The notes beneath the pieces are model-generated. The model ran no database searches, had not been told where the DNA came from, and saw only the letters and a program-made list of their open reading frames with translations. From assembly GCA_023666265.1 (NCBI GenBank), contig JAMPCH010000015.1, positions 1 through 47,982 on the forward strand: a stretch of 47,982 nucleotides of DNA, written 5' to 3'. Position numbers and translations under genes: made by a program. The DNA comes from Roseburia sp. (GTDB lineage Bacteria > Bacillota > Clostridia > Oscillospirales > Ruminococcaceae). Each line of letters begins with the position of its first letter. Positions within the stretch are counted from its first letter, which is position 1. This document shows positions 3,059 through 22,750 of this stretch, piece by piece.

Positions 3059-3076
3059 AATTATACCTCTTTATTC

Positions 3077-3922: not shown

Positions 3923-3957
3923 CGTATCCTCTCCTTTGAAAATTATTTGAAACGTCG

Positions 3958-5675: not shown

Positions 5676-5691
5676 AAAACACCTCTCATTT

Positions 5692-6648
5692 TCAGATTAT
5701 GTAATACCAACTGTCGTCTTGTTCAAGTTCTGCCCGCTGAACGGGATGCTGTGCATCATAATTATAGCGGAGTTCTTGATTTTTAATGCTGACCTTTGCT
5801 CCCTCGGGAATGGATTTGGTAATAAAAGCATTTCCCCCGACGACCACATTCTTTCCGACCACGGTTTCTCCGCCAAGAATGGAAGCACCGGAATAAATTG
5901 TTACATTATCTTCAATGGTAGGGTGACGTTTCTTGTTTTTTAACGCTTGTCCGCCCCTTGTAGACAATGCGCCCAGCGTAACTCCCTGATAGATTTTTAC
6001 GTTGTCGCCTATAATCGTTGTTTCGCCGATCACAATCCCAGTTCCGTGATCAATAAAAAAGTATTTTCCGATAGTTGCTCCCGGGTGAATGTCAATGCCC
6101 GTTTCGCTGTGAGCGTATTCCGTCATGATTCTCGGAATAAGCGGGATGTTGAGAAGATAAAGCTCATGCGCTATCCTATTCACCAAAACCGCAAACAGCC
6201 CCGGATAGGAAATGATTATCTCGTCCTTGTTGAAAGCCGCAGGGTCGCCGTTAAACGCGGCTTGAACATCGGTATCCGCATATTCGCGGATCTTGGGTAT
6301 GGCTTTGAGGAAATCCAGCGCCAACTTTTCCGCTTCGTTTGAGATGGTCTTTTCATCGGCATTTTCATACTTTGGCACATACCTCAATACGATTGAAATC
6401 TGCCTTATTAAGTTAAATAACACGTCCTCAAGAAGCATCGTTGTATTGTTTCTTACCGTGTAGACGCGAAAAGCCTTGTTTTTGAAATACCCCGGAAAGA
6501 TAATGTTTCTGAGTTTTTCGACTATCTCAACAATAATCTCCTTTTGTGGGTGGTCAAATGTATTTAAATTATCAATATCTCTGCCCTTTTCATAATCGGA
6601 CAAGATATTTTCAATCAGCCCGTTGATCTCGCTTTCAAGTTTGTTCAT
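5692..6648 (-). CDS. cysE: Serine O-acetyltransferase, EpsC type
   Basis: Makes O-acetyl-L-serine from serine and acetyl-CoA, the carbon acceptor for cysteine synthesis. The start was set at 6648 rather than 6675 because GGAGG lies 8 nt upstream of this ATG; this gives 318 aa. The long helical N-terminal domain (about 1-180) identifies the EpsC subgroup. The left-handed beta-helix with hexapeptide repeats follows, including GIDIHPGATIG, FIDHGTGIVIGET and VKIYQGVTLGALS, with the catalytic His/Asp pair in IDHGTG. It lies between the Rrf2 regulator and the HD gene. No CysK-type O-acetylserine sulfhydrylase is visible in the window, so the MetY-like enzyme at 14.8-16.0 kb is the likely consumer of its product. 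Serine acetyltransferases are also known neighbours of encapsulin-desulfurase pairs. Confidence 0.95.
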   Translation of the reverse strand: MNKLESEINGLIENILSDYEKGRDIDNLNTFDHPQKEIIVEIVEKLRNIIFPGYFKNKAFRVYTVRNNTTMLLEDVLFNLIRQISIVLRYVPKYENADEKTISNEAEKLALDFLKAIPKIREYADTDVQAAFNGDPAAFNKDEIIISYPGLFAVLVNRIAHELYLLNIPLIPRIMTEYAHSETGIDIHPGATIGKYFFIDHGTGIVIGETTIIGDNVKIYQGVTLGALSTRGGQALKNKKRHPTIEDNVTIYSGASILGGETVVGKNVVVGGNAFITKSIPEGAKVSIKNQELRYNYDAQHPVQRAELEQDDSWYYII

Positions 6649-6678
6649 TCGGGAATACCTCCATAACTGTATCAATAA

Positions 6679-7104: not shown

Positions 7105-7137
7105 CTAGTTTTCACCTCGGATTATCATCGTTTTTTC

Positions 7138-7569
7138 TTATTCGCCGCAATGCCCGCAACTTTCGCAGTCGGGGCATTGAGTCTTGTCGTACTCAATGCC
7201 GTGCCGTTCGTAGTAGTCCTTCACCGCCGCCTTTATCGCCTCTTCGGCGAGCACCGAGCAGTGCATTTTGTGCGCGGGAAGCCCGTCTAGAGCCTCGGCG
7301 ACCGCCTTATTCGAAAGCGCAAGCGCCTCGGAAAGCGGCTTGCCCTTAATCATCTCGGTCGCCATGGAACTGGACGCTATCGCCGAACCGCACCCGAACG
7401 TCTCGAATTTCACGTCGGAGATAATATCTCCGTCGATTTTCAGATAAATTTTCATAATATCGCCACACTTGCCGTTGCCGACCTCACCCACGCCGTCAGC
7501 ATTCTCGATGACACCGACGTTGCGCGGATTTGTGAAATGATCCATTACTTTTTCGCTGTACAAAGCCAT
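7138..7569 (-). CDS. iscU: IscU/NifU N-terminal type Fe-S scaffold with cysteine-rich tail
   Basis: A 143-aa scaffold on which [2Fe-2S] or [4Fe-4S] clusters are assembled from sulfur delivered by the desulfurase encoded directly upstream. The three cluster cysteines are present: C35 in GNGKCGD (with D37), C60 in FGCGSAIAS and C104 in KMHCSVLAEE. The C terminus carries four extra cysteines at 132, 135, 138 and 141 with C-x2-C spacing, which ordinary IscU proteins lack. They could bind a metal or accept persulfide sulfur. It starts 10 nt after nifS, so the pair is co-expressed. No HscA/HscB or ferredoxin genes accompany it. Confidence 0.94.
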   Translation of the reverse strand: MALYSEKVMDHFTNPRNVGVIENADGVGEVGNGKCGDIMKIYLKIDGDIISDVKFETFGCGSAIASSSMATEMIKGKPLSEALALSNKAVAEALDGLPAHKMHCSVLAEEAIKAAVKDYYERHGIEYDKTQCPDCESCGHCGE

Positions 7570-7579
7570 TTCCGTACCC

Positions 7580-8770
7580 TCACTTTAAAAAGAATTCTTT
7601 TTTACCGCTGAGCTTGTCACGCCACAAAGGCGACATATTCCGCAAATATTCTACAACTTTGGGTATTTCGGCGAGCATAAAATCAATTTCCTCCTCGGTG
7701 TTTTCCGCGGAGAGCGTCAGCCGTAGCGAGCCGTGCGCTATTTCATGCGGTTTTCCGATGGCGAGCAGAACGTGGCTCGGGTCGAGCGATCCCGACGTAC
7801 ATGCCGACCCCGATGACGCGCAAATCCCTTTTTGATCGAGCAGGAGCAACAGGCTTTCACCCTCGATGCCCTCAAAGCAAAAATGAACGTTCCCCGGCAG
7901 ACGGTTCACGGGATCGCCGTTCAGCGCGGAATGCGGGATCTTCGACAATCCCTCGATGAGCCGGTCTCTCATTTTCGTGAGCTTTTCGGCGTTTTGCGCC
8001 ATATTTGTGGTCGATTCCTCCAGCGCCGCCGCCACGCCCATTATTGCGGGGATATTTTCCGTACCCGCGCGTTTCCCGCGCTCCTGTGCGCCGCCCTCAA
8101 TAAGATTTGTGAGCGGAACGCCCTGTCTCGCGTAAAGCACGCCGACGCCTTTCGGACCGTGGAATTTATGCGCGGAAAGCGACAGCAGGTCGACGTTCTG
8201 TTCCTTGACGTTTATCGGCAGATGACCCGCCGCCTGCACCGCGTCGGTGTGGAACAGCACGCCTTTTTCGCGGCAGACCGCGCCTATTTCCGCGACCGGT
8301 AGCACGGAGCCGATCTCGTTGTTCGCGAACATCACGCTCACCAGACACGTATCCTCGCGAATGGCGTTTTTGACCTGCTCCGCCGTGACCGTGCCGACCT
8401 CACCGACGGGGAGCAGCTCCACGTCAAAGCCTTGCTTTTTCAGCTTTTCGAGCGTGTGCAGCACCGCGTGATGCTCAAACGCGGTGGAGATGATGTGCTT
8501 TCTGCCCTTGCGCTCGCCTATCGCGGCGGCAGAAAGAATGGCTTGGTTATCGGCTTCGCTGCCGCCCGAGGTGAAATATATCTCCTTGAAACTCGCGCCG
8601 AGACAGTCCGCTATCGTCTCGCGAGCCTTGAACAGTGCCTCCGCCGCCCGCTGTCCAACGCTGTGCAGACTTGACGGATTGCCGAAATTCTCCTCCATAT
8701 ACGGGAGCATCGCCTCGATAGAGGTCTTGCTCATTTTCGTTGTTGCGGCATTATCCGCGTAAATTTTCAT
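7580..8770 (-). CDS. nifS: NifS/IscS-type cysteine desulfurase
   Basis: A 396-aa group I desulfurase that converts cysteine to alanine and an enzyme persulfide. YADNAATTK lies at the N terminus, EHHAV near 99-103 and NEIGS at 151-155. The PLP lysine is K202 in SAHKFHGPKG, and the sulfur-carrying cysteine is C324 in SSGSACTSG. It is the first gene of the minus-strand operon and feeds IscU 10 nt downstream. It is distinct from the SufS-like, encapsulin-targeted desulfurase at 13.0-14.8 kb, so the locus encodes two desulfurases of different groups. GAAAGG precedes the ATG. A nearby minus-strand promoter with a possible Rrf2 site would drive it. Confidence 0.96.
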   Translation of the reverse strand: MKIYADNAATTKMSKTSIEAMLPYMEENFGNPSSLHSVGQRAAEALFKARETIADCLGASFKEIYFTSGGSEADNQAILSAAAIGERKGRKHIISTAFEHHAVLHTLEKLKKQGFDVELLPVGEVGTVTAEQVKNAIREDTCLVSVMFANNEIGSVLPVAEIGAVCREKGVLFHTDAVQAAGHLPINVKEQNVDLLSLSAHKFHGPKGVGVLYARQGVPLTNLIEGGAQERGKRAGTENIPAIMGVAAALEESTTNMAQNAEKLTKMRDRLIEGLSKIPHSALNGDPVNRLPGNVHFCFEGIEGESLLLLLDQKGICASSGSACTSGSLDPSHVLLAIGKPHEIAHGSLRLTLSAENTEEEIDFMLAEIPKVVEYLRNMSPLWRDKLSGKKEFFLK

Positions 8771-8986: not shown

Positions 8987-9020
8987 TTGACATTATAGGA
9001 TATTAGTGCTATAATGTCAA
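8987..9020. promoter_or_regulatory. Perfectly symmetric bidirectional promoter
   Basis: TTGACATTATAG (8987-8998) and CTATAATGTCAA (9009-9020) are exact reverse complements around a 10-nt centre. On the plus strand this gives TTGACA, a 17-nt spacer and TATAAT at 9010-9015, aimed at the LysR gene. On the minus strand the same bases give TTGACA (9020-9015), a 17-nt spacer and TATAAT (8997-8992), aimed at nifS. The two polymerase sites overlap completely, so only one can be used at a time. The palindrome is also a natural site for a dimeric regulator. Confidence 0.75.
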
Positions 9021-9090
9021 TGTTTAACTTGATAAAATGCTGTCCCGTACGGTTTCCGATGTTCCCCGATCATCGCAAAGGAGAAACATT

Positions 9091-10029
9091 ATGACGATAC
9101 AACAATTGCACTACATCATCACGATCTCCGAAACTGGGTCGCTCAACAAAGCGTCGGAAATTTTATACGTGTCTCAGCCGTCGCTCACAAGCTCCGTAAA
9201 GGAACTCGAAAAGGAGCTCGGTATCACGATATTTCACAGAAGCGGCAGAGGCGTAACACCTACCAACGAGGGGACGGAGTTTTTACTGTACGCGCGGCAA
9301 CTCTATCAGCAGTACGAATCAATCCTACAGAAATACGGCAAGCTCGGCGGTCTGAAAAAGAAATTCGGCATATCGACTCAGCATTATTCCTTCGCGGTTA
9401 AAAGCTTTGTGGAAATGGTGAAGAAATTCAACACAGCCGAGTATGATTTCGCGATACGCGAGACAAAAACACGCGAGGTCATCGACGATGTAAACACGGG
9501 TAAAAGCGAGATCGGGATCATATATCTGAGTGACTTCAACCGCGCGGCGATCATGAAGCTGTTGAACACAAAGGACTCGGAGTTCCATGAACTGGCGGTC
9601 TGCGACGCCTATGTATACCTCTGGAGAAATCACCCGTTGGCGGGAAAAAGCTCCATTCGGTTCGAGGAGCTGAACGAATACCCTTGCCTGTCGTTTGAAC
9701 AGGGCGATAACGCGTCGTTTTATTTCGCGGAAGAAATTCTCGGAACAAAGGAATACGCGCGGACGATAAAGGCGAACGACCGCGCCACCATGTTAAATCT
9801 TATGATCGGTCTGAACGGGTACACGCTCTGCTCCGGCATCATCTGTGAGGAGCTGAACGGTACGGATTTTGTCGCTGTTCCGTTCGAGTATGACGACCTC
9901 GCCGACGCGGACAGAATGGTCATCGGATATATCAAAAGAAAGAATATGCCGCTGAGCGTTATGGGCGAGCTTTATATCGAGGAGATACGCAATTATCTGA
10001 CCCAATGCGGAGCTATCGGCAAAGTTTAA
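9091..10029 (+). CDS. LysR-family transcriptional regulator
   Basis: A 312-aa LysR-type regulator. The start was set at 9091, where AAAGGAG lies 6 nt upstream, rather than at an upstream in-frame ATG at 9037. Residues 1-60 form the winged helix-turn-helix (QQLHYIITISETGSLNKASE, then SQPSLTSSVKELEKELG). Residues from about 90 form the periplasmic-binding-like effector domain. It is divergent from the nifS operon and stands just before the sulfur-carrier/encapsulin operon, in the position of CysB, CysL or YtlI-type regulators that sense O-acetylserine or sulfide. Two downstream promoters share an identically placed CTATA-x-CTC element that could be its binding site. The effector is unknown. Confidence 0.93.
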   Translation: MTIQQLHYIITISETGSLNKASEILYVSQPSLTSSVKELEKELGITIFHRSGRGVTPTNEGTEFLLYARQLYQQYESILQKYGKLGGLKKKFGISTQHYSFAVKSFVEMVKKFNTAEYDFAIRETKTREVIDDVNTGKSEIGIIYLSDFNRAAIMKLLNTKDSEFHELAVCDAYVYLWRNHPLAGKSSIRFEELNEYPCLSFEQGDNASFYFAEEILGTKEYARTIKANDRATMLNLMIGLNGYTLCSGIICEELNGTDFVAVPFEYDDLADADRMVIGYIKRKNMPLSVMGELYIEEIRNYLTQCGAIGKV

Positions 10030-10055: not shown

Positions 10056-10111
10056 CTATAGCTCGGAATACATATTATATATTGGACAACCACCCGCCGC
10101 AGTGGTATAAT
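10056..10111 (+). promoter_or_regulatory. Promoter of the encapsulin/sulfur-carrier operon with upstream element
   Basis: CTATAGCTC at 10056-10064 is followed 16 nt later by ATTGGACAA (10081-10089), which contains a TTGGAC -35. TATAAT is at 10106-10111 with an 18-nt spacer. The weak -35 and the upstream element fit an activator-dependent promoter. The same three parts at the same distances recur at 18994-19049. Downstream, CCTAT and ATAGG can pair across the leader and would cover the AGGTGA ribosome site of the first gene. Confidence 0.7.
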
Positions 10112-10173
10112 ATTAACAGAGATCAAAACGCAAATAAAGCCTATCTTTTCCATATTTTTTATAGGTGAATTTT

Positions 10174-10608
10174 ATGCTGATACTGAATGATAACGTTCGC
10201 GAGGCGCTACTCTCTCACGCGGAGCGCGAATATCCTCATGAATGTTGCGGCGTTCTGCTCGGGCTTCGCGCCGACGGAAAGCGGATCGCCGAGCGGGCGG
10301 TTCGTTTGGAGAACAAAAGCGGTTCGGACAAAACCGTGCGCTTCGCTGTCGACCCGCTCGACATTCCGAGGATAGAAAAAACGGCTTTTGCGGAAGGTCG
10401 GGAGATCGTCGGGTTTTATCATTCCCACCCGAACCGCGCCGCCGTTCTCTCAAAAACGGACGAGCGATATATGCTCGAGGACTGCTCCTATCCCGTCGTC
10501 TCGGTAAACGAGGGCGCGGGCGGAATGGTCTTTAAGATCGCGAGCTTTGAAAAAATGATCGGCACAAGCATCTGCTCGGAGGAGCAAATTTCGGAAAGCG
10601 AGAAATGA
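10174..10608 (+). CDS. JAMM/MPN+ metalloprotease (Mec/QbsD-like), first copy
   Basis: A 144-aa zinc protease of the JAB1/MPN+ family. The active site is complete: E23 in PHECCG, H83 and H85 in YHSHPNRA, S93 and D96 in the H-x-H-x7-S-x2-D motif. Bacterial relatives such as Mec and QbsD cut after the Gly-Gly of ubiquitin-like sulfur carriers, either releasing cysteine or trimming an extended tail. The ATG at 10174 was chosen over a GTG at 10165 because AGGTGA lies five bases before it. It is the first gene of the operon and stops one base before the MoaD-MoeB-rhodanese fusion, whose Gly-Gly is internal. That fusion is its most likely substrate or partner. Confidence 0.9.
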   Translation: MLILNDNVREALLSHAEREYPHECCGVLLGLRADGKRIAERAVRLENKSGSDKTVRFAVDPLDIPRIEKTAFAEGREIVGFYHSHPNRAAVLSKTDERYMLEDCSYPVVSVNEGAGGMVFKIASFEKMIGTSICSEEQISESEK

Positions 10609-10609
10609 A

Positions 10610-12067
10610 ATGAAGAACACGTTATATATTTCGGCGACCCTGCGCCTTTTCACGGAGCAAAACGCCGAGGTCGAGGTCGAGGGAACGACCGTCCGCGAGG
10701 CGTTAGACGACCTGCGCGGAAGGTTTCCGGAAAGTGAGAAAATTTTCGAGGAAAACGGTATCCTCAAACCGTTCGTGAGCGTTTTCGTGGGCGATACGCG
10801 TATTTCAAACGATCGATACGATACCGCTTTAAGGGAAGGCGTGCGCGTTTTGTTGCTCCCCGTTATCGCGGGCGGCGCGCCCGTCGGGAGCGTTATCGCG
10901 GACGAGCGCCGAAAGGCGGTGACGCTGGACGACGGCGAGATCGAGCGCTATAATAAGCACCTTATGCTGAAAGACATCGGCGTTAAGGGACAAAAGCGCA
11001 TTAAGGCGGCGAAGGTCTTGGTGATCGGCTTAGGGTCTCTCGGCGCGCCGGTGGCGCAGTATCTCGCGGCGGCGGGCGTGGGAACGCTCGGGATCGCCGA
11101 CTTTGACGAGGTATCTCTCGGCAATCTTCAAAGTCAGGTGATACATACAACGCGCGATGTACACAGACCCAAAACCGCGTCCGCAAAGGACACGATAAAG
11201 GCGATAAATCCCAAAGTCAAGATCGAGCCGATCAACGAGCGGATCACCGCCGAAAATATCGCCGCAATCATCGAAAATTACGACGTTATCGTCGACTGTA
11301 CCGACAATTATCCGTCGCGCTATCTCATCAACGACGTGTGCGTGCTGGGCGGAAAGCCACTCGTGTTCGGCGCGATGTATCAGTTTGAGGGGCAGGTGAG
11401 CGTTTTCGACGCAAAGAACGGACCGTGCTTTCGGTGTCAGTTCCCGTCGCCGCCGCCTATCGGATTAGTCCCCACCTGTTCGGCGGGCGGCGTGATAAGT
11501 CCGCTCCCCGGCATCATCGGTAGCATACAGGCGAACGAGGTTTTGAAGCTCCTCATCGGCGGCGGCGAGACGCTTACGGGTAAGCTGTTCGTTATGGATT
11601 CGTGGCATTTCCGCGCGTCGGTTTTGAATATATGCAAGGACGAGAATTGCCCCGTCTGCGGGAAATCGCCGTCCGTTACCGAGATGACCGAGTATGATTA
11701 CGAGGATTTCTGCGGCTTGAAGCCGTCCGAGGACGAAATTCCCGTGGAGACCATGGAGGTCGAGGAGCTGGTCGCGAGGATCGAAAAGGGCGAACCCGTG
11801 ACGATCGTGGATATTCGCGAGCCGCACGAACGCGCGATCCACCGCTTCCCGAACGCGATCGTGATCCCGATCGGACAGCTCGCGCGGCGGCAAAAGGAGC
11901 TTGACCCCGACGTCGATACCGTGTTCATCTGCACGGAGGGGAAACGGAGCATTCTCGCGGTGAACACGCTTCGCGAGGCGGGCTACGTCGGACCGATGTA
12001 CAGCCTCAAGGGCGGCATGGACGCGGCAAAGAACGTGATCTTCTCAAACGAGGGAGCATGGTTATAA
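10610..12067 (+). CDS. MoaD-like carrier fused to MoeB/ThiF E1 and rhodanese
   Basis: A 485-aa three-domain protein. Residues 1-89 form a MoaD-like beta-grasp carrier ending in VIAGG, followed without a stop by a linker. Residues 105-370 form an E1-like adenylyltransferase with GLGSLGAPVAQYLAAAGVG at 140-158, D229-C230-TDN and PTC (C290). It has four zinc cysteines at 273, 276, 347 and 350. Residues 383-480 form a rhodanese with C441 in CTEGKRS. E1 enzymes of this type adenylate a carrier's C-terminal glycine, and the rhodanese supplies persulfide sulfur to make a thiocarboxylate. A carrier fused through its Gly-Gly cannot be activated until cut, unless this domain is only a docking module. 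The adjacent JAMM protease could make the cut. Several rhodanese-fused MoeB proteins are known; the carrier-E1-rhodanese order is less common. Confidence 0.93.
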   Translation: MKNTLYISATLRLFTEQNAEVEVEGTTVREALDDLRGRFPESEKIFEENGILKPFVSVFVGDTRISNDRYDTALREGVRVLLLPVIAGGAPVGSVIADERRKAVTLDDGEIERYNKHLMLKDIGVKGQKRIKAAKVLVIGLGSLGAPVAQYLAAAGVGTLGIADFDEVSLGNLQSQVIHTTRDVHRPKTASAKDTIKAINPKVKIEPINERITAENIAAIIENYDVIVDCTDNYPSRYLINDVCVLGGKPLVFGAMYQFEGQVSVFDAKNGPCFRCQFPSPPPIGLVPTCSAGGVISPLPGIIGSIQANEVLKLLIGGGETLTGKLFVMDSWHFRASVLNICKDENCPVCGKSPSVTEMTEYDYEDFCGLKPSEDEIPVETMEVEELVARIEKGEPVTIVDIREPHERAIHRFPNAIVIPIGQLARRQKELDPDVDTVFICTEGKRSILAVNTLREAGYVGPMYSLKGGMDAAKNVIFSNEGAWL

Positions 12068-12108
12068 AGCTTTTTAGCTTTTAAAATATTTTTAAGGAGA
12101 CTAAAATC

Positions 12109-13062
12109 ATGGCAAACGAAGAACAGGTAATCAAGGCGTTGGGCGCACGCGCCGCGTATAACCTCGCGGACGTAAACAAAACTAAGCCGCAGTACGGCGC
12201 GATCACCCCGAAGTGGCTGACAAAGCTGTTGGAATTTAAGGGCTTGGCGACGGGGATCTACCGCGTAAACAAGGTCGTCGAGGGCGAAACGCCGCTGGAC
12301 GTTTTGTGCAGTCAGACGAAGAAATCGGACATTATCCCCGACGGTTATATAGAGTATGAGGAAGAGCCGCGCGAATATCGGTTAAATTCCATTTCGACGA
12401 TCATCAACGTGAATACCGCGATAGAGGACGTGTACAGCGCGCCCTATGATCAGGTGAAGGAGCAGCTTTCTCTCGCGATCGAGAGCCTCCGCGAGCGTCA
12501 GGAGAGCCAGCTTATCAACAACGACGATTACGGCTTGCTGAAAAACGTTCCCGACGGTCAGAGAATACAGCCGGTGCAGAGCAACGGCGCGCCCACGCCC
12601 GACGACCTCGACGAGCTTATCACGAAGGTATGGAAAGAGCCGTCCTTCTTCCTCGCGCACCCGAGAGCGATCGCGGCGTTTGAGAGAGAATGTACCAAGC
12701 GCGGCGTCCCCCCGGTGACGGCGAATATCGCGGGCGGTACGTTCATTACGTGGAGAGGTATCCCGCTGATCCCGACCGACAAGCTGTTGGTGGACGGACT
12801 AAAAAATCCCAAGAGCCAAAGCGGCAAGACCAATATCCTCCTGCTCCGTACCGGCGAGGCGAAGCGCGGCGTGATCGGACTGTATCAAGCGGGTATGAAG
12901 AATGAGCAGTCGAGAGGGCTGTCTGTGCGCTTTAGAGGTATCGACGATAAGGGCGTCGCGTCCTATCTGTTGTCGCTGTACTGCTCGGCGGCGATCTTGG
13001 CGGACGACGCGATCGCCGTACTTGAGGACGTTGAGGTGGGCGAGTATCATGATTACGAATAA
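12109..13062 (+). CDS. Family 2A encapsulin shell protein (SrpI-like)
   Basis: A 317-aa HK97-fold nanocompartment shell protein. It matches the SrpI/MMPI lineage along its whole length: ITPKWLTKLLEF near the N terminus, then GIYRVNKV, EEPREYRLNSISTI, an ERQESQLINNDDYGLL segment, PTPDDLDELITKVWK, FITWRGIPLIP and a C terminus of AVLEDVEVGEYHDYE. There is no cyclic-nucleotide-binding domain, which separates 2A from 2B. Family 2A shells self-assemble and enclose a cysteine desulfurase, and they have been linked to sulfur storage. The next gene overlaps it by 14 nt and encodes exactly such a cargo enzyme. AAGGAG lies 9 nt before the ATG. Confidence 0.96.
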   Translation: MANEEQVIKALGARAAYNLADVNKTKPQYGAITPKWLTKLLEFKGLATGIYRVNKVVEGETPLDVLCSQTKKSDIIPDGYIEYEEEPREYRLNSISTIINVNTAIEDVYSAPYDQVKEQLSLAIESLRERQESQLINNDDYGLLKNVPDGQRIQPVQSNGAPTPDDLDELITKVWKEPSFFLAHPRAIAAFERECTKRGVPPVTANIAGGTFITWRGIPLIPTDKLLVDGLKNPKSQSGKTNILLLRTGEAKRGVIGLYQAGMKNEQSRGLSVRFRGIDDKGVASYLLSLYCSAAILADDAIAVLEDVEVGEYHDYE

Positions 13063-14779
13063 TTGGGGCTTACCCTCGGCGAGCGAACTGGAAGCGCTCG
13101 CGAACGGGCTTTATACCGACATCGACGGAAGCCTTTTTCAGCCCGATGTGTGCGCTGAGGGTATTCAAAAGCTCGTGACAACGGGCGATACGGGAATTAT
13201 CGACACCGCCGCGAACAAAGCCGTTTCCGCATTCGGGATAAGCAATTACGAAAACATTCTCGTCGAACTCGGCGAGGAACTGAATTTCGACGCGCTTTCG
13301 GGAGTGAACGGCGAATTTCCCGCTTTTGACGATATGGGCGGCGCGTTCCGCGAATTGGAGGATCGAGCCGCGCAATACGCCGATCCCGCGCCTTCCCAAA
13401 AAACAAAAACAACGGCTTTTTCCCCCAGCGTGATCTCACAAACACAAGCGGAGAACGATTCTCGGATCAACGTCCGCACCACCGCGAACGACAACAACGT
13501 TATCCCGAAAAAAGACGGCGGCGTGAATTTCGAGACGGTGGGCGGTCAGAAAAATAATACGAAGATCGTCATCGGGACGAAAACGCTCGAACAGATACGC
13601 GAGGACTTCCCGATCCTACGCGAAAGGGTGAACGGAAATCCGCTGATCTGGCTGGATAACGGCGCGACCACACAGCGCCCGAAAGCCGTCATCGACCGTT
13701 TGAGCTATTATTACGAGCACGAAAATTCCAACGTTCACAGGGGCGCGCACACGCTGGCGGCGCGGTCGACGGACGCATATGAAAAGGCGCGGCAGATCGT
13801 CGCGGAGTTCATCGGTGCGCCCTCAAAGGACAATATCGTCTTTGTGCGCGGGACGACCGAGGGGATAAACCTTGTCGCGCAGGCTTACGTAAAGCCGCTT
13901 CTCGAGCCGGGCGACGAGATCATCGTTTCGCTTTTGGAGCACCACGCGAACATCGTTCCGTGGCAGCTTGTCGCGGAGGAAACGGGCGCGGTGATCAAGG
14001 TGATCCCCGTGGATCGATCGGGGCAATTGATCCTCCCCGAATACGAAAAGCTGTTCACCAAGCGCACGAAATTCGTTTCCGTAACGCACGTTTCAAACGT
14101 TCTCGGCACGATAACTCCCGTCGCGGAGCTTGTCGCAATCGCGCACAGGCACGGTGTGCGTATCCTCATCGACGGAGCGCAGTCGGTGGCGCATATCCCC
14201 GTGAACGTTTCGGCGCTGGACGCGGACTGGTTCGTGTTCTCGGGGCATAAGATCTACGCGCCGACGGGGATCGGCGCGGTATACGGGAAAAAGGACGTTC
14301 TCGAAGCGGCAAGACCCTATCACGGCGGCGGCAATATGATAAAGGACGTTACCTTTGAGCGGACGGTGTACAACCCCGCGCCGAATAAATTCGAGGCGGG
14401 AACGGGCAGCATCGCGGACGCGGTGAGTCTCGGCGCGGCGCTCGAGTATCTGAACGGCATCGGAATGCCCGCCGTCAGCGCCTACGAGCACGAGCTCGTG
14501 AGCTACGGCATGAAGGAGCTCGGGAAGATCAACGGACTGCACCTGATAGGCACAGCTCCCGAAAAATCGAGCGCGTTGTCGTTCGTGATAGACGGCGTTC
14601 CCAACGACACGGTGGGGCAGATACTCGACCAATACGGCATTGCTGTGCGGGTGGGTCATCACTGCGCGCAGCCGATTTTGCGGCACTACGGTCTGGAGGG
14701 CGTCGTGCGCCCGACGCTGGCGCTGTACAACACCTTCGAGGACATCGACGCGCTTGTAAAAGCGTTAAAAACGATATGA
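13049..14779 (+). CDS. SufS-type cysteine desulfurase with long N-terminal encapsulin-cargo region
   Basis: A 576-aa enzyme. The start at 13049 overlaps the shell gene by 14 nt; longer frames upstream are shadows of the shell gene. Residues 1-178 are an extension not found in ordinary SufS. They are part helical and part low-complexity (Ala/Pro/Thr/Asn-rich at 110-175), like the disordered loading domain of encapsulated desulfurases. Residues 180-576 are the group II desulfurase, with DNGATTQRPKAV, the PLP lysine K401 in FSGHKIYAPTG and the catalytic C539 in RVGHHCAQP. It removes sulfur from cysteine inside the shell. No SufU, SufE or SufBCD gene is nearby, so its sulfur is probably stored or passed to the rhodanese and TusA-like proteins rather than used for Suf cluster assembly. 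Confidence 0.95.
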   Translation: MITNNWGLPSASELEALANGLYTDIDGSLFQPDVCAEGIQKLVTTGDTGIIDTAANKAVSAFGISNYENILVELGEELNFDALSGVNGEFPAFDDMGGAFRELEDRAAQYADPAPSQKTKTTAFSPSVISQTQAENDSRINVRTTANDNNVIPKKDGGVNFETVGGQKNNTKIVIGTKTLEQIREDFPILRERVNGNPLIWLDNGATTQRPKAVIDRLSYYYEHENSNVHRGAHTLAARSTDAYEKARQIVAEFIGAPSKDNIVFVRGTTEGINLVAQAYVKPLLEPGDEIIVSLLEHHANIVPWQLVAEETGAVIKVIPVDRSGQLILPEYEKLFTKRTKFVSVTHVSNVLGTITPVAELVAIAHRHGVRILIDGAQSVAHIPVNVSALDADWFVFSGHKIYAPTGIGAVYGKKDVLEAARPYHGGGNMIKDVTFERTVYNPAPNKFEAGTGSIADAVSLGAALEYLNGIGMPAVSAYEHELVSYGMKELGKINGLHLIGTAPEKSSALSFVIDGVPNDTVGQILDQYGIAVRVGHHCAQPILRHYGLEGVVRPTLALYNTFEDIDALVKALKTI

Positions 14780-14793
14780 AACGGTATTGAAAT

Positions 14794-16020
14794 ATGGAAT
14801 TTTGTACAAAGGTACTTCACGGCAAGTCGGCGGGGAGATTTCAGAACGGCGCGACGCTTCCGCCGATAAGCCAGGTGTGCGCGTTTTCCTATGAAAACGC
14901 GGAGGAGTTGCAAAAGGTATTCGAGGGCAGAGCGCCCGGGTTCGCGTACACGCGGATCGCGAACCCGACCGTGGACGCTTTCGAGCGCCGCATCTGCGAG
15001 CTGGAGGGCGGCGCGGCGGCGACCGCGTGCGCCTCGGGAATGGCGGCGATCTCTTCGACGCTCTTTAATATTTTACGGGAAGGCGATGAGATCGTCGCGA
15101 GCGCGGGACTTTTCGGGGGTACGGTCGATCTCTTTCGCGATCTTGAGGAATACGGTATCGCGACCAAATTCGTCACGCGTATGACCGCGACAGAGATCGA
15201 AAAAAATCTCACCGATAAAACGAAGGTCATTTTCGGTGAGATAATCGGAAACCCCGGGCTCGACGTCATGGATATAAGCGCGGTCTCGGCGCTCGCGCAC
15301 GCGAACGGTATCCCGCTCATCGTCGACGCGACCACCGCCACGCCCTATCTGATCCGCTCGATCGGATACGGCGCGGACATCGTGATCCATTCCTCGTCGA
15401 AATACATCAACGGTAACGGAAATTCGATCAGCGGGATCATCATCGACAGCGGAAAATTTAAGTGGGATCTCGAGAAATTCCCCGTATTCGCGGAGTATAA
15501 AAAATTCGGCAGTCTGGCGTTTACCGCGCGGCTGAAAAACGATGCTTGGCGAAATATCGGCGGCTGTCTCTCGCCGCTAAACGCGTATCTGAATTTGCTC
15601 GGCGTTGAAACGCTCGCGTTGCGAATGGAGCGAATTTGTGAAAACGCGCTCGCTTTGGCGAGGGAGCTGGAAAAATTCGACGGGATCACGGTGAATTATC
15701 CGGGACTTAAAAATAACCCGAATTATCCGCTCGTGCAGAAGCAATTCGGCGGCAGGGGCGGCGGTATTGTCACGCTGAGGGCGGGTTCAAGGGAGCGCGC
15801 GTACAAGCTGATGAATTCGCTGAAATACGCGCTGAACGCGACGAATATCGGCGACACGAAAACGCTCGTCATTCACCCTGCGTCGACGATCTATCTCCAC
15901 AACACGGAGGAACAGAAAATAAACGCGGGCGTATACGACGATACGATCCGCGTAAGCGTGGGAATTGAGGACGCGAAAGATCTTATCGAGGATTTTTGCG
16001 AAGCCCTTCAAAAACTGTAA
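14794..16020 (+). CDS. metY: MetY-like O-acetylhomoserine/O-acetylserine sulfhydrylase
   Basis: A 408-aa Cys/Met-metabolism PLP enzyme. FAYTRIANPTVDAFE lies at about 50-64, the substrate/PLP loop ACASGMAAI at 78-86, IVDATTATP at 176-184, and the PLP lysine K203 in HSSSKYINGNGNS. Family members join a sulfur donor to O-acetylhomoserine or O-acetylserine, yielding homocysteine or cysteine. Its operon holds a ThiS-like carrier, an E1 and a JAMM protease. This is the arrangement of thiocarboxylate-dependent homocysteine synthesis, as described in Wolinella (HcyS, HcyF, HcyD, MetY), and resembles mycobacterial CysO-CysM-Mec. Whether it uses acetylhomoserine or acetylserine cannot be read from the sequence; cysE in the facing operon favours acetylserine. 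Confidence 0.9.
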   Translation: MEFCTKVLHGKSAGRFQNGATLPPISQVCAFSYENAEELQKVFEGRAPGFAYTRIANPTVDAFERRICELEGGAAATACASGMAAISSTLFNILREGDEIVASAGLFGGTVDLFRDLEEYGIATKFVTRMTATEIEKNLTDKTKVIFGEIIGNPGLDVMDISAVSALAHANGIPLIVDATTATPYLIRSIGYGADIVIHSSSKYINGNGNSISGIIIDSGKFKWDLEKFPVFAEYKKFGSLAFTARLKNDAWRNIGGCLSPLNAYLNLLGVETLALRMERICENALALARELEKFDGITVNYPGLKNNPNYPLVQKQFGGRGGGIVTLRAGSRERAYKLMNSLKYALNATNIGDTKTLVIHPASTIYLHNTEEQKINAGVYDDTIRVSVGIEDAKDLIEDFCEALQKL

Positions 16021-16034
16021 AAGAGGTGTTAAAA

Positions 16035-16280
16035 TTGGCTGATTTTGAAATAACCGACACGGTGGATATTACGGACGTGAATTGTCCCGTGACGTTCGTA
16101 AAGGCGAAAGTGGCGCTCGACGAGCTGGACGAGGGCGATATACTGAAAGTGCATATGAACGGCGGCGAGCCCGCCGAAAACGTCCCGAGAAGCCTTAAAG
16201 AGGAGGGTCACGAAATTCTCGAACTTACTCAAAATCCCGACGGAACGTTTGACCTCATCGTCAGAAAGGTCGGTGATTAA
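16035..16280 (+). CDS. TusA/SirA-like sulfurtransferase
   Basis: An 81-aa protein starting at TTG (GAGGTG eight bases upstream). It has the TusA fold pattern, with the sulfur-carrying cysteine C17 in TDVNCPVTFVKAK. The canonical CPxP motif is reduced to CPVT, as in several sulfur-carrier operons. TusA-like proteins pass persulfide sulfur between proteins. Here the protein sits between the sulfhydrylase and thioredoxin genes, so it likely relays sulfur from the desulfurase or rhodanese toward the E1. The end overlaps the region of the next start. Confidence 0.85.
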   Translation: MADFEITDTVDITDVNCPVTFVKAKVALDELDEGDILKVHMNGGEPAENVPRSLKEEGHEILELTQNPDGTFDLIVRKVGD

Positions 16281-16281
16281 C

Positions 16282-16599
16282 GTGGCGGAACGAGTTGGCA
16301 AGGACGATTTCACCGAAAAGGTGTTGGATTTCACGGGACTTTCCGTGGTGGAGTTTTATACGGACAGCTGTGTCCCGTGTAAGCGAATGTCGCCGATCTT
16401 AGCGGACTTGGGGGAGCGGTACGCCGAAGGCGTTCACATAACGAAGGTAAACGCGGCGTTTGAACCCGAGCTCGCGGAGGAATATGAGATCGCCGCCACG
16501 CCGACATTTTTGTTTTTTAAAAACGGCGAGATCGTCGAGCGCTTTACGGGGGCGCGGAAAAAGGAAGAACTCGAAGAATTGATCAAAGCGAACAGATAG
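16282..16599 (+). CDS. trxA: Thioredoxin
   Basis: A 105-aa thioredoxin with the active site FYTDSCVPCKRMSP (C30, C33) and the cis-proline segment ATPTFLFFKNGE. CVPC replaces the usual CGPC. GTG starts exist at 16273 and 16282. The former overlaps the TusA-like stop and has AAAGG close by; the latter leaves one base between the genes. I chose the latter, with low certainty. It likely reduces persulfides or disulfides in the pathway, recharged by the reductase at 18.0-18.9 kb in the same operon. It ends in TAG, which shows that TAG is an ordinary stop codon in this genome. Confidence 0.92.
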   Translation: MAERVGKDDFTEKVLDFTGLSVVEFYTDSCVPCKRMSPILADLGERYAEGVHITKVNAAFEPELAEEYEIAATPTFLFFKNGEIVERFTGARKKEELEELIKANR

Positions 16600-16608
16600 G
16601 AGGAGCTT

Positions 16609-16827
16609 ATGAAAATAACGGTAGCGGGCGCGGCAAAGGAGGTCGCGGACGGCTTGACCATAGCCGAGCTTATAAAGCAGGAGAACGTGGAAAATCCCGA
16701 TTACGTCACGGTGTCGGTGAACGACGAATTCGCGGAAAGCGAAAGCTTTGCGACGCGCGAGCTGCACGACGGAGACACCGTGGAATTTTTATATTTTATG
16801 GGAGGCGGCGGTTATGGCGTTCACTAA
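16609..16827 (+). CDS. ThiS/HcyS-like ubiquitin-fold sulfur carrier with extended C terminus
   Basis: A 72-aa beta-grasp carrier (MKITVAGAAKEV, then LTIAELIKQ and LHDGDTVEFLYF). The C terminus reads MGGGGYGVH: the reactive Gly-Gly is followed by four extra residues at 69-72. Carriers must end in a free glycine to be adenylated, so YGVH (or more) has to be removed first. The JAMM protease two genes downstream is the clear candidate. This parallels QbsE/QbsD and HcyS/HcyD. The glycine codons also supply the Shine-Dalgarno GGAGG for the overlapping E1 gene, whose ATG lies at 16814. Confidence 0.92.
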   Translation: MKITVAGAAKEVADGLTIAELIKQENVENPDYVTVSVNDEFAESESFATRELHDGDTVEFLYFMGGGGYGVH

Positions 16828-17620
16828 CGAGCAGCTGGAGCGGTATTCGCGGCACATTATCTTAAAGGAAATCGGCGTAAAGGGGCAAAAAAAGCTGTTG
16901 AACGCAAAGGTATTGATCATCGGCGCGGGCGGCTTGGGCGCTCCCGCCGCGATGTACCTCGCCGCGGCGGGCGTGGGAACGATCGGCATCGCCGACGCGG
17001 ACGAGGTGGATCTTTCCAATCTTCAGCGACAGATCATCCACGCGACGGACGACGTGGGAAAGCCGAAGGTTCTCTCCGCGAAAGAGACGATGAACCGCAT
17101 GAACCCCGACGTTACGGTCAACACCTATCACGAATTTGTCACGTCCGAAAACATCACGGAGCTTATCCGCGATTACGATTTCATCATTGACGGCACGGAT
17201 AATTTCCCCGCGAAATTTCTGATAAACGACGCGTGCGTTATGGCGAAAAAGCCCTTTTCTCACGCGGGGATCATCCGCTTTAAAGGTCAGCTTATGACCT
17301 ATGTCCCCGGGGAAGGTCCGTGTTATCGCTGTGTATTCAAAAACCCGCCGCCGAAGGACGCCGTACCTACCTGTAAACAGGCGGGCGTGGTCGGCGCAAT
17401 GGGCGGCGTGATCGGCAGCTTACAGGCGATGGAAGCGATAAAATACATCACCGGCACGGGCGATCTGCTGACGGGTTATCTGCTCACGTTCGACGCGATA
17501 AAAATGGAATTCCGCAAGATAAAACTCCCGAAAACGGACGGAAAATGCGCGGTTTGCGGCGAAAACCCGACGATAACGGAGCTTATTGATTACGAACAGA
17601 CCGAATGCGAGGGCGTTTAA
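16814..17620 (+). CDS. ThiF/HcyF-like E1 adenylyltransferase
   Basis: A 268-aa E1-like enzyme with the nucleotide motif GAGGLGAPAAMYLAAAGVG at 37-55, DGTDNFPAK at 126-134, and C187 in VPTCKQAG. Its zinc cysteines are at 170, 173, 245 and 248. It adenylates the C-terminal glycine of a ubiquitin-like carrier so that a thiocarboxylate can form. It overlaps the carrier gene by 14 nt, so the pair is translationally coupled. No rhodanese is attached, unlike the first E1, so a separate sulfur donor (TusA-like protein or desulfurase) is implied. An ATG further upstream in frame was rejected because the SD sits just before 16814. Confidence 0.94.
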   Translation: MAFTNEQLERYSRHIILKEIGVKGQKKLLNAKVLIIGAGGLGAPAAMYLAAAGVGTIGIADADEVDLSNLQRQIIHATDDVGKPKVLSAKETMNRMNPDVTVNTYHEFVTSENITELIRDYDFIIDGTDNFPAKFLINDACVMAKKPFSHAGIIRFKGQLMTYVPGEGPCYRCVFKNPPPKDAVPTCKQAGVVGAMGGVIGSLQAMEAIKYITGTGDLLTGYLLTFDAIKMEFRKIKLPKTDGKCAVCGENPTITELIDYEQTECEGV

Positions 17621-18033
17621 TGGTTATCATATCAAAAGAGAATTATGAAAAAATCGTCGCGCACGCGCTTTCCGAGCTGCCGAATGAGGCTTGCGGACTT
17701 ATCGCCGGAAAAATCGAAGGCGAAGATAAGCGCGTCGAAAAGGTCTATCTGCTGACGAATGTCGACAGATCCAACGAGCATTTTTCGCTCGACCCGAAGG
17801 AACAGCTCGCCGCCGTCAAGGATATGCGGGATCGCGGGCTGACCCCGCTCGGGAACTGGCATTCCCACCCCGAATCGCCGTCGCGCCCGTCGGAGGAGGA
17901 CAAGCGGCTCGCCTATGACAAGACCGCGAGCTACCTTATTTTGTCGCTGATGGATAGGGAAGCTCCCGTGCTGAATTCGTTTCACATCGAGGGCGATAAC
18001 GCGCGGCGCGAAGAACTTGTAATCGAAGCTTAA
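17620..18033 (+). CDS. JAMM/MPN+ metalloprotease, second copy (HcyD-like)
   Basis: A 137-aa JAB1/MPN+ protease with an intact site: E23 in PNEACG, H81 and H83 in WHSHPESP, S91 and D94. Its ATG shares a base with the stop of the E1 gene (TAATG), indicating tight coupling to the carrier/E1 pair. Its likely jobs are removing the YGVH tail of the carrier and/or releasing homocysteine or cysteine from the carrier adduct. It differs clearly in sequence from the JAMM at 10.2 kb, so the two are not a recent duplication, and each probably serves its own neighbouring carrier. Confidence 0.92.
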   Translation: MVIISKENYEKIVAHALSELPNEACGLIAGKIEGEDKRVEKVYLLTNVDRSNEHFSLDPKEQLAAVKDMRDRGLTPLGNWHSHPESPSRPSEEDKRLAYDKTASYLILSLMDREAPVLNSFHIEGDNARREELVIEA

Positions 18034-18048
18034 AATCGAGGATCGAAA

Positions 18049-18945
18049 ATGAGAGATATTGTTATAATCGGCAGCGGTCCCGCGGGGCTGTCAGCCGCTT
18101 TGTACGCGAAACGCGCGAATCTGGACGTGCTCGTCGTTGAAAAGGAATTCCAAGGCATCGGACAGATCGCCGAGAGCGCTCAAGTGGATAATTATATCGG
18201 GCTTTGCGGAATTAGCGGATTTGATTTGGGCGAGAAATTCCGGAGCGACGCGGAGAAATTCGACGCGGAATTTTACGAGGGTAACGCGCTGAAAATCGAG
18301 CTTCAAAACGGCGTTTGGCATACGTTTTTCGAGAATGAGATCATCAAATCGAGAACGGTAATTTACGCCGCGGGGGCAACTCACAGAAAGCTGAATGTCC
18401 CCGGCGAGGAGCGGCTGATCGGTAGGGGCGTTTCCTTCTGCGCGGTGTGTGACGGCGCGTTATATCGCGGAAAAACGGTCGCCGTTATCGGCGGCGGAGA
18501 TACCGCGCTTGACGACGCGCTGTATCTCTCCGACATTGCCGAAAAGGTGTATCTCATTCACCGAAGAACCAAATTTCGAGGTTCGGAAAAAAGCGTTTTA
18601 AAAATAAAATCCAAAGAAAATATCGAGATCGTCACACCTGCGAACGTTCTTGGAATATGCGGCGAAAACCGCATAAATTCAATAAAGCTCGACAACGGTC
18701 GCGAACTCGCGCTTAACGGGATCTTTGTCGCGATAGGAATGTCCCCCGCGACCGATTTGGTAAAAAACATCGTCACGCTCGACAGCGGAGGATATATCCG
18801 AGCGGACGAAACGGGGATCACCGACGCGCCGGGATTTTTCGCGGCGGGCGACGTGAGGACGAAAAAACTGCGGCAGGTCGTGACCGCCGTTTCCGACGGC
18901 GCGAACGCGGCGTTCTCGGCAATTGAATATTTGAAAAAAATTTGA
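18049..18945 (+). CDS. trxB: Thioredoxin reductase-like flavoprotein
   Basis: A 298-aa FAD/NAD(P)H disulfide oxidoreductase. The FAD motif GSGPAG is at 8-13, the redox-active CAVC at 131-134, the second dinucleotide motif GGGDTA at 148-153, and the closing FAD segment GFFAAGDVR near the C terminus. HRRTKFRGS after the second motif resembles NADPH-binding reductases. It is the last gene of the operon and probably reduces the thioredoxin encoded 1.5 kb upstream. A strong terminator follows five bases after its stop. Confidence 0.93.
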   Translation: MRDIVIIGSGPAGLSAALYAKRANLDVLVVEKEFQGIGQIAESAQVDNYIGLCGISGFDLGEKFRSDAEKFDAEFYEGNALKIELQNGVWHTFFENEIIKSRTVIYAAGATHRKLNVPGEERLIGRGVSFCAVCDGALYRGKTVAVIGGGDTALDDALYLSDIAEKVYLIHRRTKFRGSEKSVLKIKSKENIEIVTPANVLGICGENRINSIKLDNGRELALNGIFVAIGMSPATDLVKNIVTLDSGGYIRADETGITDAPGFFAAGDVRTKKLRQVVTAVSDGANAAFSAIEYLKKI

Positions 18946-18949: not shown

Positions 18950-18982
18950 CGGTATTGCGGTTCGACGCGATACCGCTTTTTT
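18950..18982 (+). terminator. Rho-independent terminator of the sulfur-carrier operon
   Basis: CGGTATTGCG pairs with CGCGATACCG (one G-U) around a GTTCGA loop, and CTTTTTT follows. It lies directly after trxB. Confidence 0.9.
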
Positions 18983-21073: not shown

Positions 21074-22750
21074 ATGTTGAAAATAAATTCAAAACAGCCG
21101 ATAAAACGGCTTGCGGCAGCGCTTTCCGCTACCGTTATATGGGCGCTGTCCGTCTCGTTTTTAGGCGTTTCGGCAACGGCTGAGGGCTCGTCCGACAGCG
21201 CATACGACGCGGGGAAAGCCTATTACAATTCGGATTACAATTATCTGAACGACGAAAGCTCGGTCTTTCAAAGCGTTACATGGGAGGAGGCGGTGTACCT
21301 CTTCCAACAGGAGGGAAACTATCTGATCCTGCTCGGCGGATCGTGGTGTCCGAATACGACCGCAGTCATTGATTATATCAATGAAGCGGCGAAAGCGGCG
21401 GGAGTGGAGACGATCTACAATCTCGATTTTCGCCTTGACGGCGCAAGCGGCGACTCTCATATCCGCGAAACCAACGGCTCGGATAAGGCGGGCGCGGCTT
21501 ATAACTACCTTTACGGCGAGTTGGTAACGCGTTATTTGACGAACCTTAACGATTGGGTGGAATATACCGTCGACAGCGAAAGCGCGTTGACTTATACCAA
21601 CGCGAACGGCGTGGATATTACCGTTCCCAAAGCGCAAGTGCCGTTTTTGTTCCTCTACAATAAAGACAATGCCGTAAATCACGCGGGAGAATCAGCGGAG
21701 GGCGAAAAATATCCCATCGTATACGGCTTTGAAAAAATGGTGTACCGCGACGCGAACGGCGGTAAAACGCTGTTTACAAGCTCCCAAACGCAGGACGGCA
21801 CCACGGAGGTCACCGATTACTCCGCGCAGTTGAACGACGCGATATTCGGTCATATCCGGTCGGAGAATATCAAGCTTTCGTCCTTTACCGATGCGGATTA
21901 TATCCGCCTTGCGTATAACGAAAAATCGGGCGAAAGCATCTTTGAAAACGGCGAAAAAATAAACATACAAACCGTTACCTACCGACAGCTTGAATGGTTG
22001 CTTCGCCAAAACGGGAATTATCTGATCCTGTTCGGCGGCTCGTGGTGCGGAAATACGCAGGCGGTCATCGACATCATCAACGATTACGCGGTCGAAAACA
22101 ACTTGACCGTGTACAATTTCGACACCAAGCTGGACGGCGGCTACGCGAAGAAATATTGGGGCTATTCGGAGGACGTTCATATCCGCGACAGCAATAACGT
22201 TTTCGCGAACCGATACGTCGATATTGTTAAAGAATATCTGGACAACATCGAGACCGAATACACCATCGACAGCGGGAATTTCGTTTTTTATCAGACCGAC
22301 CCCGCCGATGAAAGTTCTCAAGTCATCGCCAATAAGCTCCAAGTTCCGTATTTCTTCGCTTACAATCATGATTGCGTGGACGAAAACGGACACGACACGC
22401 CCATTCTCGGCTATGTTGAAAAAATGTACGTGCTTGACGAGAGCCGCGAGGACTATATCGGAAACGAAAATAACTACGAGGATTACACCACGGCGGCACT
22501 CTCGGTGATCGGCGCTTATCGATCGGAAGGCGCGGTCGAGACCGCCGCTACTGCCGCTCCGCAGGCGATCGTCGATAACGACCCTGTCATAAACGGTAAC
22601 GTCGATCCGACGGACAGCGCTCAATCCGCCGCAAACGACACGACGAAGATCATCGTCGCGGTCGTGGGGGTCGCCGCAGTCGTCGGCGTGGTGATCTTCC
22701 TCGCGGTCGGAAAGAACAGGTCAAATAATAACGGCGGCGGGTGTTGCTGA
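21074..22750 (+). CDS. Secreted protein with two single-cysteine thioredoxin-like domains
   Basis: A 558-aa surface protein. A signal peptide lies at 1-36, and a C-terminal transmembrane helix at about 525-546 is followed by a short tail ending GGGCC. Two similar domains occupy about 68-280 and 299-500. Each contains a helix of the type EEAVYLFQQEGN or RQLEWLLRQNGN, a strand, and then GGSWCPNTTAV (C92) or GGSWCGNTQAV (C325). A thioredoxin follows the same plan, but the second active-site Cys is replaced by Thr, so each domain is monothiol. Each domain later has a VPFLF or VPYFFAYN stretch resembling the cis-proline segment. It is encoded behind the cystine transporter, so thiol capture, glutaredoxin-like exchange or cystine binding at the surface is plausible. 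I do not know a described family for it. Confidence 0.8.
   Translation: MLKINSKQPIKRLAAALSATVIWALSVSFLGVSATAEGSSDSAYDAGKAYYNSDYNYLNDESSVFQSVTWEEAVYLFQQEGNYLILLGGSWCPNTTAVIDYINEAAKAAGVETIYNLDFRLDGASGDSHIRETNGSDKAGAAYNYLYGELVTRYLTNLNDWVEYTVDSESALTYTNANGVDITVPKAQVPFLFLYNKDNAVNHAGESAEGEKYPIVYGFEKMVYRDANGGKTLFTSSQTQDGTTEVTDYSAQLNDAIFGHIRSENIKLSSFTDADYIRLAYNEKSGESIFENGEKINIQTVTYRQLEWLLRQNGNYLILFGGSWCGNTQAVIDIINDYAVENNLTVYNFDTKLDGGYAKKYWGYSEDVHIRDSNNVFANRYVDIVKEYLDNIETEYTIDSGNFVFYQTDPADESSQVIANKLQVPYFFAYNHDCVDENGHDTPILGYVEKMYVLDESREDYIGNENNYEDYTTAALSVIGAYRSEGAVETAATAAPQAIVDNDPVINGNVDPTDSAQSAANDTTKIIVAVVGVAAVVGVVIFLAVGKNRSNNNGGGCC

Follow-up and report, generated by a model that had tools for sequence, protein, structure and literature searches.

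The window analysed here, a contig of 47,982 nucleotides (nt) from a Roseburia sp. (JAMPCH010000015.1, assembly GCA_023666265.1), contains a predicted transcription unit at 10165-18945 on the forward strand that joins a family 2A encapsulin and its cysteine desulfurase to the machinery of protein-thiocarboxylate synthesis. This gene linkage is certain. ORF (open reading frame) translation and profile searches define 11 genes, and all those named in a first-pass annotation of this DNA were found where it had placed them. The first, JAMM1 (10165..10608, with an alternative ATG start at 10174; PF14464), is an M67/Prok-JAB protease resembling Mec and desampylases. It is followed by a 485-residue triple fusion (10610..12067) of a CysO-like ubiquitin-like carrier (UBL1), an E1 enzyme and a rhodanese, by the encapsulin shell protein (12109..13062, 317 residues) and by a SufS-type cysteine desulfurase with an N-terminal extension (13049..14779). 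Further downstream are a MetY-like O-acetylhomoserine/O-acetylserine sulfhydrylase (14794..16020; TIGR01326 409 bits, below the cut-off of 495), a TusA/SirA-like sulfurtransferase (about 16035..16280; PF01206), a thioredoxin with a CVPC motif (about 16282..16599; PF00085), a ThiS/HcyS-like carrier with a C-terminal tail past its Gly-Gly (UBL2, 16609..16827; TIGR01683 60 bits, cut-off 37), an HcyF/ThiF-like adenylyltransferase without rhodanese (E1b, 16814..17620; PF00899), an HcyD-like JAMM metalloprotease with an invariant motif (JAMM2, 17620..18033; PF14464) and a thioredoxin reductase (18049..18945; PF07992; TIGR01292 323 bits, below the cut-off of 343). The two carriers, two E1 enzymes and rhodanese listed in the annotation are thus present, but one carrier, one E1 and the rhodanese form a single polypeptide rather than separate genes. 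Similarly, it had most genes tied together by overlaps of 1-14 nt, whereas there are three true overlaps (encapsulin/desulfurase and UBL2/E1b, 14 nt each; E1b/JAMM2, 1 nt), and the remaining seven junctions are spaced by 1-41 nt.

The arrangement is not restricted to this contig. A scan of genome contigs yielded 495 relatives of the encapsulin, the best 80 of which were analysed, so that the sample is weighted to the window's clade; their loci were annotated with the window proteins and with reference proteins from annotated plasmids. Going by record titles, they belong to Clostridia and their kin (among them Lachnospiraceae strains and isolates, for example of Ruminococcus flavefaciens and Pseudobutyrivibrio), to four Fibrobacter and to one Treponema. 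In 78 of the 80 loci, fusion and encapsulin are direct neighbours, at frame distances of -34 to 189 nt, and the other two loci begin at a contig end; this adjacency, found in 78 of 78 evaluable loci, is far beyond chance. Counted on the same strand per 80 loci, the fusion and the desulfurase each occur in 78, serine O-acetyltransferase (SAT) in 59, JAMM1 in 57, MetY in 55, UBL2 in 54, E1b in 53, JAMM2 in 50 (and fused to TusA in two more), TusA in 49, thioredoxin in 27, thioredoxin reductase in 19, CysK in 18 and CysM in six. Wherever the fusion (two loci) or the desulfurase (two loci) is missing, the contig ends at that point. When 1502 ORFs picked from the 80 loci were clustered, 16 neighbour families were present in at least six loci, 12 of which match sulfur-gene or regulator queries; the other four were not put to profile search. 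Three metagenome-assembled genomes have two copies of the locus on separate contigs (L049/L052, L051/L056 and L040/L050), by duplication or strain mixture.

A neighbourhood survey of family 2A encapsulins for thiocarboxylate genes had been proposed in the first-pass annotation, which would have abandoned its idea had the pairing been unique to this contig. It is not, since the link is kept in Bacillota, Fibrobacterota, a Treponema and a plasmid of Aliarcobacter cibarius (L102). The gene order in the latter is cysteine synthase, M67 protease, IS110, MoaD/ThiS, E1 domain (a search match with no listed gene), IS5, rhodanese domain, encapsulin, desulfurase, cysE and cysK; in this state, the carrier is still encoded on its own. 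Both insertion sequences (IS) fall in the interval from the M67 protease to the rhodanese domain (L102:5517-9653), and IS5 splits the E1 match from the rhodanese. As for the 17 outgroup loci searched, E1 is absent in 11 (L103-L106, L108-L111, L113, L117 and L118). These are plasmids of Variovorax, Azospirillum, Synechococcus, Burkholderia and Methylosinus, the same-phylum genomes L106 and L108-L111, with 45-69% identical shells, and L113. Three of the four annotated E1-less plasmids show at least one of SAT, cysteine synthase and rhodanese; that of Methylosinus shows none. The sulfur-gene neighbours of these three agree with the published partners of family 2A encapsulins, among which the available text of PMC8346489 reports SAT and rhodanese as enriched. 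Neighbours of the SrpI locus include cysteine synthase too.

Co-occurrence was also assessed in whole genomes. Among 297 genomes of the window's family, that of the window included, and with thresholds of E <= 0.001 for the encapsulin and E <= 1e-90 for the fusion, seven carry both, one the encapsulin only, one the fusion only and 288 neither (Fisher p 1.7e-12, without correction for kinship). The encapsulin-only genome (G098) sits on a long branch, and the fusion-only match (G254) lies at a contig edge in a genome that is 81% complete. In 398 genomes of the phylum, seven have the encapsulin and two the fusion, both of the latter being among the seven (Fisher p 2.7e-4). Eight of the nine sampled genomes with the fusion also carry the encapsulin; in the remaining one, a contig edge truncates the match. 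Neither gene is present in the four congeneric genomes listed. Surveys around two outgroup genomes covered nine and ten genomes, with one and six encapsulin carriers, respectively. A tree was built by a quick method from 98 encapsulins thinned at 96% identity to 57 (44 with a fusion or E1 alongside, 11 with neither, two unscored; L102 was scored positive despite the IS element between its E1 and rhodanese parts). The trait requires two changes on this tree, and none of 500 shuffles gave as few. A single gain and a single loss, the latter in L113, would explain this most simply, although several deep branches are long and near-copies favour clustering. The encapsulin and desulfurase of L113 are on a long branch, with no E1 match, and lie beside pyruvate:ferredoxin oxidoreductase. 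Distance matrices of the gene families correlate positively for the pairs that yielded a value (r 0.40-0.84 in 13 of 14), to which we give little weight because host phylogeny was not controlled for.

The encapsulin scores 477 bits with the family 2A model NF041162 (cut-off 380) and 367 bits, below the cut-off of 400, with the 2B model NF041163; its sole Pfam match at E <= 0.01 is PF19307, with no cNMP domain, as befits family 2A, and its PDB relatives are 8t6r and 6x8m. Sulfur storage is described in the literature for shells of this family. The desulfurase scores 544 bits with the SufS model TIGR01979 (cut-off 475) and 772 bits with the cargo model NF041166, just below 800. Its catalytic Cys and the Lys that binds pyridoxal phosphate (PLP) are each present in 79 of 79 sequences (window and 78 loci). 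At residue 14, it carries LEALANGLY, which resembles the motif LARLANEFFS of the disordered N-terminus through which the SrpI cargo is loaded (PMC8049743, available text). Patterns of this type occur in 61 of 78 desulfurases and in none of 669 other labelled ORFs of the 80 loci. The fusion, TusA and the other labelled ORFs were considered as a second cargo and rejected, as the motif gives co-encapsulation no support.

In the fusion, the carrier occupies residues 1-89, ending in AGG, and a linker leads to the E1 (about 105-372) and rhodanese (about 376-485, with CTEGKRS) domains. The closest solved chains to UBL1 are 4n6e_B (a ThiS/MoaD family protein) and 3dwg_C (a culture filtrate antigen), which we take to be CysO-type carriers, and those closest to the E1 part are MoeB, Uba4 and ThiF. 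The Gly-Gly of the carrier is therein internal to the chain rather than C-terminal. It nevertheless shows no variation across all 79 fusions (those of the window and 78 loci), while the distance from it to E1 residue H117 ranges between 25 and 39 residues. A carrier needs a free C-terminal glycine for adenylation, and cleavage of the fusion is therefore the natural reading. JAMM1, whose HxHx7SxxD motif is intact in 58 of 58 aligned rows (window and 57 loci), stands beside the fusion. Given the invariance of the internal Gly-Gly, we predict that a JAMM protease frees the fused carrier, and we rate such a cleavage as more likely than not. This predicted maturation of a fused ubiquitin-like carrier can be tested in a test tube.

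The second carrier module resembles the one used for homocysteine synthesis in Wolinella, HcyS-HcyF-HcyD-MetY, in which HcyS likewise has a tail beyond its Gly-Gly and HcyD is its protease. The window unites a tailed carrier, an E1, a JAMM protease and MetY, and UBL2, closest to ThiS chains among solved structures, extends two to seven residues past its first Gly-Gly in all 54 loci that have it. UBL2, E1b and JAMM2 form a full set, 5' or 3' of the core, in 30 of the 38 loci flanked by 8 kb or more on each side. JAMM2 and TusA share one open frame in L064 (15085-15801) and L077 (12696-13493). In TusA, the usual CPxP motif is replaced by CPxTFVK, with C, P and T each found in 50 of 50 rows.

What the carriers serve is indicated by the enzymes around them. 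A CysM-type synthase is found in nine loci (six of the 80, as well as L102, L112 and L115), where it completes a CysO-CysM-Mec set. It lies directly 5' of JAMM1 and the fusion in L024, L035, L061, L063, L075, L083, L112 and L115, and 5' of the JAMM and carrier genes in L102, where it is closest to O-acetylserine sulfhydrylase B/cysteine synthase B chains. The L115 locus appears frayed, as its CysM, encapsulin and desulfurase matches are each split over two frames. Of the 80 loci, 76 have at least one of SAT, CysM, CysK and MetY, and in 45 the first labelled gene 3' of the desulfurase is SAT, at -48 to 216 nt. The genome of the window has no ThiS-family carrier other than the two in the operon, and two of its five ThiF-family matches are in the operon. 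Together, the relatives of the carriers, the CysM/SAT context and these sole ThiS matches argue for the making of amino acids rather than of thiamin or molybdopterin, and we consider carrier-dependent amino-acid synthesis likely. The nine CysM-bearing loci and the 76 with at least one of the four enzymes support the cysteine/homocysteine synthesis put forward in the first-pass annotation. In the window, O-acetylserine might be supplied by an EpsC-type SAT (5692..6675, reverse strand; NF041874 155.1 bits, cut-off 150) encoded in a divergent Rrf2-IscU-IscS cluster. That cluster (1904-8770, reverse strand) comprises a PatB-type C-S lyase (1904-3058), a rhodanese with a TtcA-like part (4399-5079), the SAT, Rrf2, IscU/NifU and IscS.

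How sulfur would pass from the desulfurase to the carriers is constrained by the shell. The available text of PMC8049743 gives the fivefold pore of the SrpI shell as 3.7 Å and reports that the shell accelerates its desulfurase about sevenfold. By analogy and by the distribution of the cargo motif, the desulfurase is probably inside the shell and the sulfur acceptors outside, in which case sulfur must cross as a small molecule. For the relay proposed earlier, in which proteins mobilise persulfide, direct collection from the lumen is probably not possible, given such a pore and a motif present on desulfurases only. Small sulfur species taken up by the rhodanese or TusA are the more likely means of handoff. 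In humans, the desulfurase NFS1 passes sulfur directly to the rhodanese part of the E1 enzyme MOCS3 (PMC3625234, available text); transfer from a desulfurase to an E1-rhodanese is therefore normal chemistry, even if contact must be indirect here.

From the gene content, co-occurrence and conserved catalytic residues, we infer a sulfur-recycling operon, in which a family 2A encapsulin and the desulfurase that it cages are linked to the making of cysteine and homocysteine via protein thiocarboxylates; we hold this reading to be somewhat better than evenly balanced. The SufS-type enzyme would strip sulfur from cysteine in the cage, and the surplus might be kept in or at the shell, a storage role that we rate below the reading as a whole. 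Sulfur would exit as sulfide, low-molecular-weight persulfide or polysulfide and be taken over by TusA and by the rhodanese part of the fusion, with thioredoxin and its reductase supplying electrons. JAMM1, or JAMM2 where JAMM1 is absent, would cut the fusion after the internal Gly-Gly, and the freed CysO-like carrier would be adenylated and thiolated by its own E1; JAMM2 would likewise trim the tail of UBL2 for E1b and TusA. The thiocarboxylates would then be used by a PLP-dependent sulfhydrylase, which may be a CysM-type enzyme with O-acetylserine elsewhere and MetY with O-acetylhomoserine here, before a JAMM protease releases the amino acid from its carrier. It is tempting to go further and to see in the encapsulin the sulfur depot of the cell, from which the carriers, one of them JAMM-released from a polyprotein, retrieve sulfur and divide it between cysteine and homocysteine, in a compartment-coupled circuit that has spread among gut anaerobes of several phyla. 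This broader version is tentative, and we would lean against it.

Several observations weigh against the recycling operon. Rebuilding cysteine with sulfur taken from cysteine gains nothing unless the two processes are separated in time, and the published pore speaks against a direct protein relay to the lumen (PMC8049743, available text). JAMM1 is missing in 16 of the 71 loci with at least 700 bp ahead of the fusion; 13 of these carry JAMM2, and three, whose contigs end early, show no JAMM. Eight of the 38 loci with sufficient flanks are without the full UBL2/E1b/JAMM2 set, which makes the second carrier optional. Four of the 80 loci show none of SAT, CysM, CysK and MetY; the window operon itself has no CysM, and the SAT of the window sits in the divergent cluster. 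Genes for PALP-family enzymes (two of them strong matches), a second SAT and two strong Cys/Met PLP enzymes are found elsewhere in the genome, and so the operon need not be the sole route. Finally, the fusion is absent in five of seven encapsulin-bearing genomes of the phylum and in G098 of the family, which implies that the shell can do without it.

Those five genomes of the phylum also speak for the principal alternative, a shared regulon with no direct handoff. The shell and desulfurase would remove or buffer excess cysteine, and the carriers would use free sulfide or thiosulfate, both systems responding to sulfur status. The 11 E1-less outgroup loci fit such a loose association, as does a pore that excludes proteins (PMC8049743), and the carrier clusters of types 4c and 4e are described without mention of an encapsulin in the available text of PMC1779556. 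However, a mere regulon sits less well with a fusion that adjoins the encapsulin in every evaluable locus, with the encapsulin in eight of nine fusion-bearing genomes, the ninth being truncated, and with a rhodanese-E1 that is a known type of desulfurase acceptor (PMC3625234, available text). On balance, we find the shared regulon unlikely, albeit worth keeping in view. Far less probable is a SAMP/urmylation-like system, in which UBL1, its E1 and JAMM1 would control the compartment by tagging proteins such as the shell or the desulfurase. Conjugation of ubiquitin-like proteins by an E1 without an E2 is established for SAMP and Urm1, and both JAMM proteases score against the desampylase family; yet their 71 and 83 bits are under the cut-off of 130, the presence of CysM, SAT or MetY next to the module suggests a metabolic role, and the best solved relatives of UBL1 are taken to be of CysO type. 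Use of the carriers for thiamin, molybdopterin or tRNA thiolation, to which the ThiS score of UBL2 and the rhodanese/TtcA-like protein at 4399-5079 might point, is at least as improbable in a genome without a further ThiS-family carrier and next to neighbour families of which 12 of 16 match sulfur-gene or regulator queries, the remaining four not having been profile-searched.

As to its surroundings, the operon is preceded by a separate gene for a LysR-type regulator (9037..10029, forward strand; PF00126/PF03466) that is 89% identical in the nearest relatives, L014-L017. A promoter-like site on the forward strand (TGGACA-17-TATAAT, 10083..10111) matches 11 of 12 consensus positions and has TG ahead of the second hexamer, and a pattern match on the same strand to a terminator-like hairpin (10 pairs, then a T-run; 18950..18975) is found directly 3' of the last gene. 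Such single sites are pointers only, since shuffled sequences yield many too (19 promoter-like sites in the region against 7.6 in shuffles; 20 terminator-like sites against 15.8). At 8987-9020, in the interval that separates the LysR gene from the IscS cluster, lie two perfect promoter-like sites, one per strand, that cover nearly the same bases. No riboswitch or T-box was found by Rfam (gathering threshold) in the window and 14 loci. The GC content is about 55% across 10-18 kb and 44-50% upstream of it. Elsewhere in the window, a group II intron RNA (RF00029, 1080-1164) adjoins an ORF at 27-1025, and a 558-residue protein with no Pfam match (21074-22750), 3' of a symporter gene, has two thioredoxin-like repeats (LLGGSWC..., ILFGGSWC...). 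A pemK RNA motif (RF02913) with two large serine recombinases after it (27602-31564), together with low-GC DNA at 32-34 kb, has the look of an integrated element.

The first-pass annotation knew of no described system of this form, and our literature search, which left out most subscription papers and supplements, including supplementary neighbourhood tables, found no description that joins an encapsulin with ThiF or a sulfur carrier. Papers pairing encapsulins with ubiquitin-like proteins concern other matters, judging by title and abstract start. 'ThiF' is absent from the main text of PMC8049743 and PMC8346489, in which JAMM and MetY were not searched and ThiS is indistinguishable from 'this'. 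The source of sulfur for CysO is called unknown in the available text of PMC3227635, and the operon offers a candidate answer as to the origin of thiocarboxylate sulfur in CysO-type pathways, as well as to what lies downstream of family 2A encapsulated desulfurases. The linkage suggests a coupled storage and reuse of sulfur in gut bacteria, which is now testable.

The operon joins two known systems, the encapsulated desulfurase and carrier-thiocarboxylate synthesis. With SrpI/CyD of Synechococcus elongatus (PMC8049743, PMC8346489), it shares the shell family, the SufS-type cargo, the LAN-type N-terminal motif and sulfur-gene neighbours; in contrast, its rhodanese belongs to the carrier-E1 fusion, and it has JAMM proteases, a second carrier and MetY besides. 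Operon types with a carrier, an E1 and a JAB protease have been described, including types 4c and 4e (PMC1779556, available text). The CysO-CysM-Mec-MoeZR system (type 4c; PMC3227635) has in common with it a carrier, here probably CysO-like, the E1-rhodanese, the JAMM protease and, in nine related loci, CysM, but in the window the carrier is fused ahead of its E1, CysM is absent and there is a tie to an encapsulated desulfurase. HcyS-HcyF-HcyD-MetY (type 4e) shares the ThiS-like tailed carrier, the E1 without rhodanese, JAMM, SirA/TusA and MetY; unlike in that system, no sulfate-assimilation genes are seen in the window operon, the sulfur probably coming from the caged desulfurase, and two related loci have JAMM2 fused to TusA. 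Lastly, MoaX, a MoaD-MoaE fusion, is also a carrier fused to a partner that must be cut after an internal Gly-Gly, by a protease left unidentified in the available text of PMC4326299, whereas the partner here is an E1-rhodanese and a JAMM gene adjoins it.

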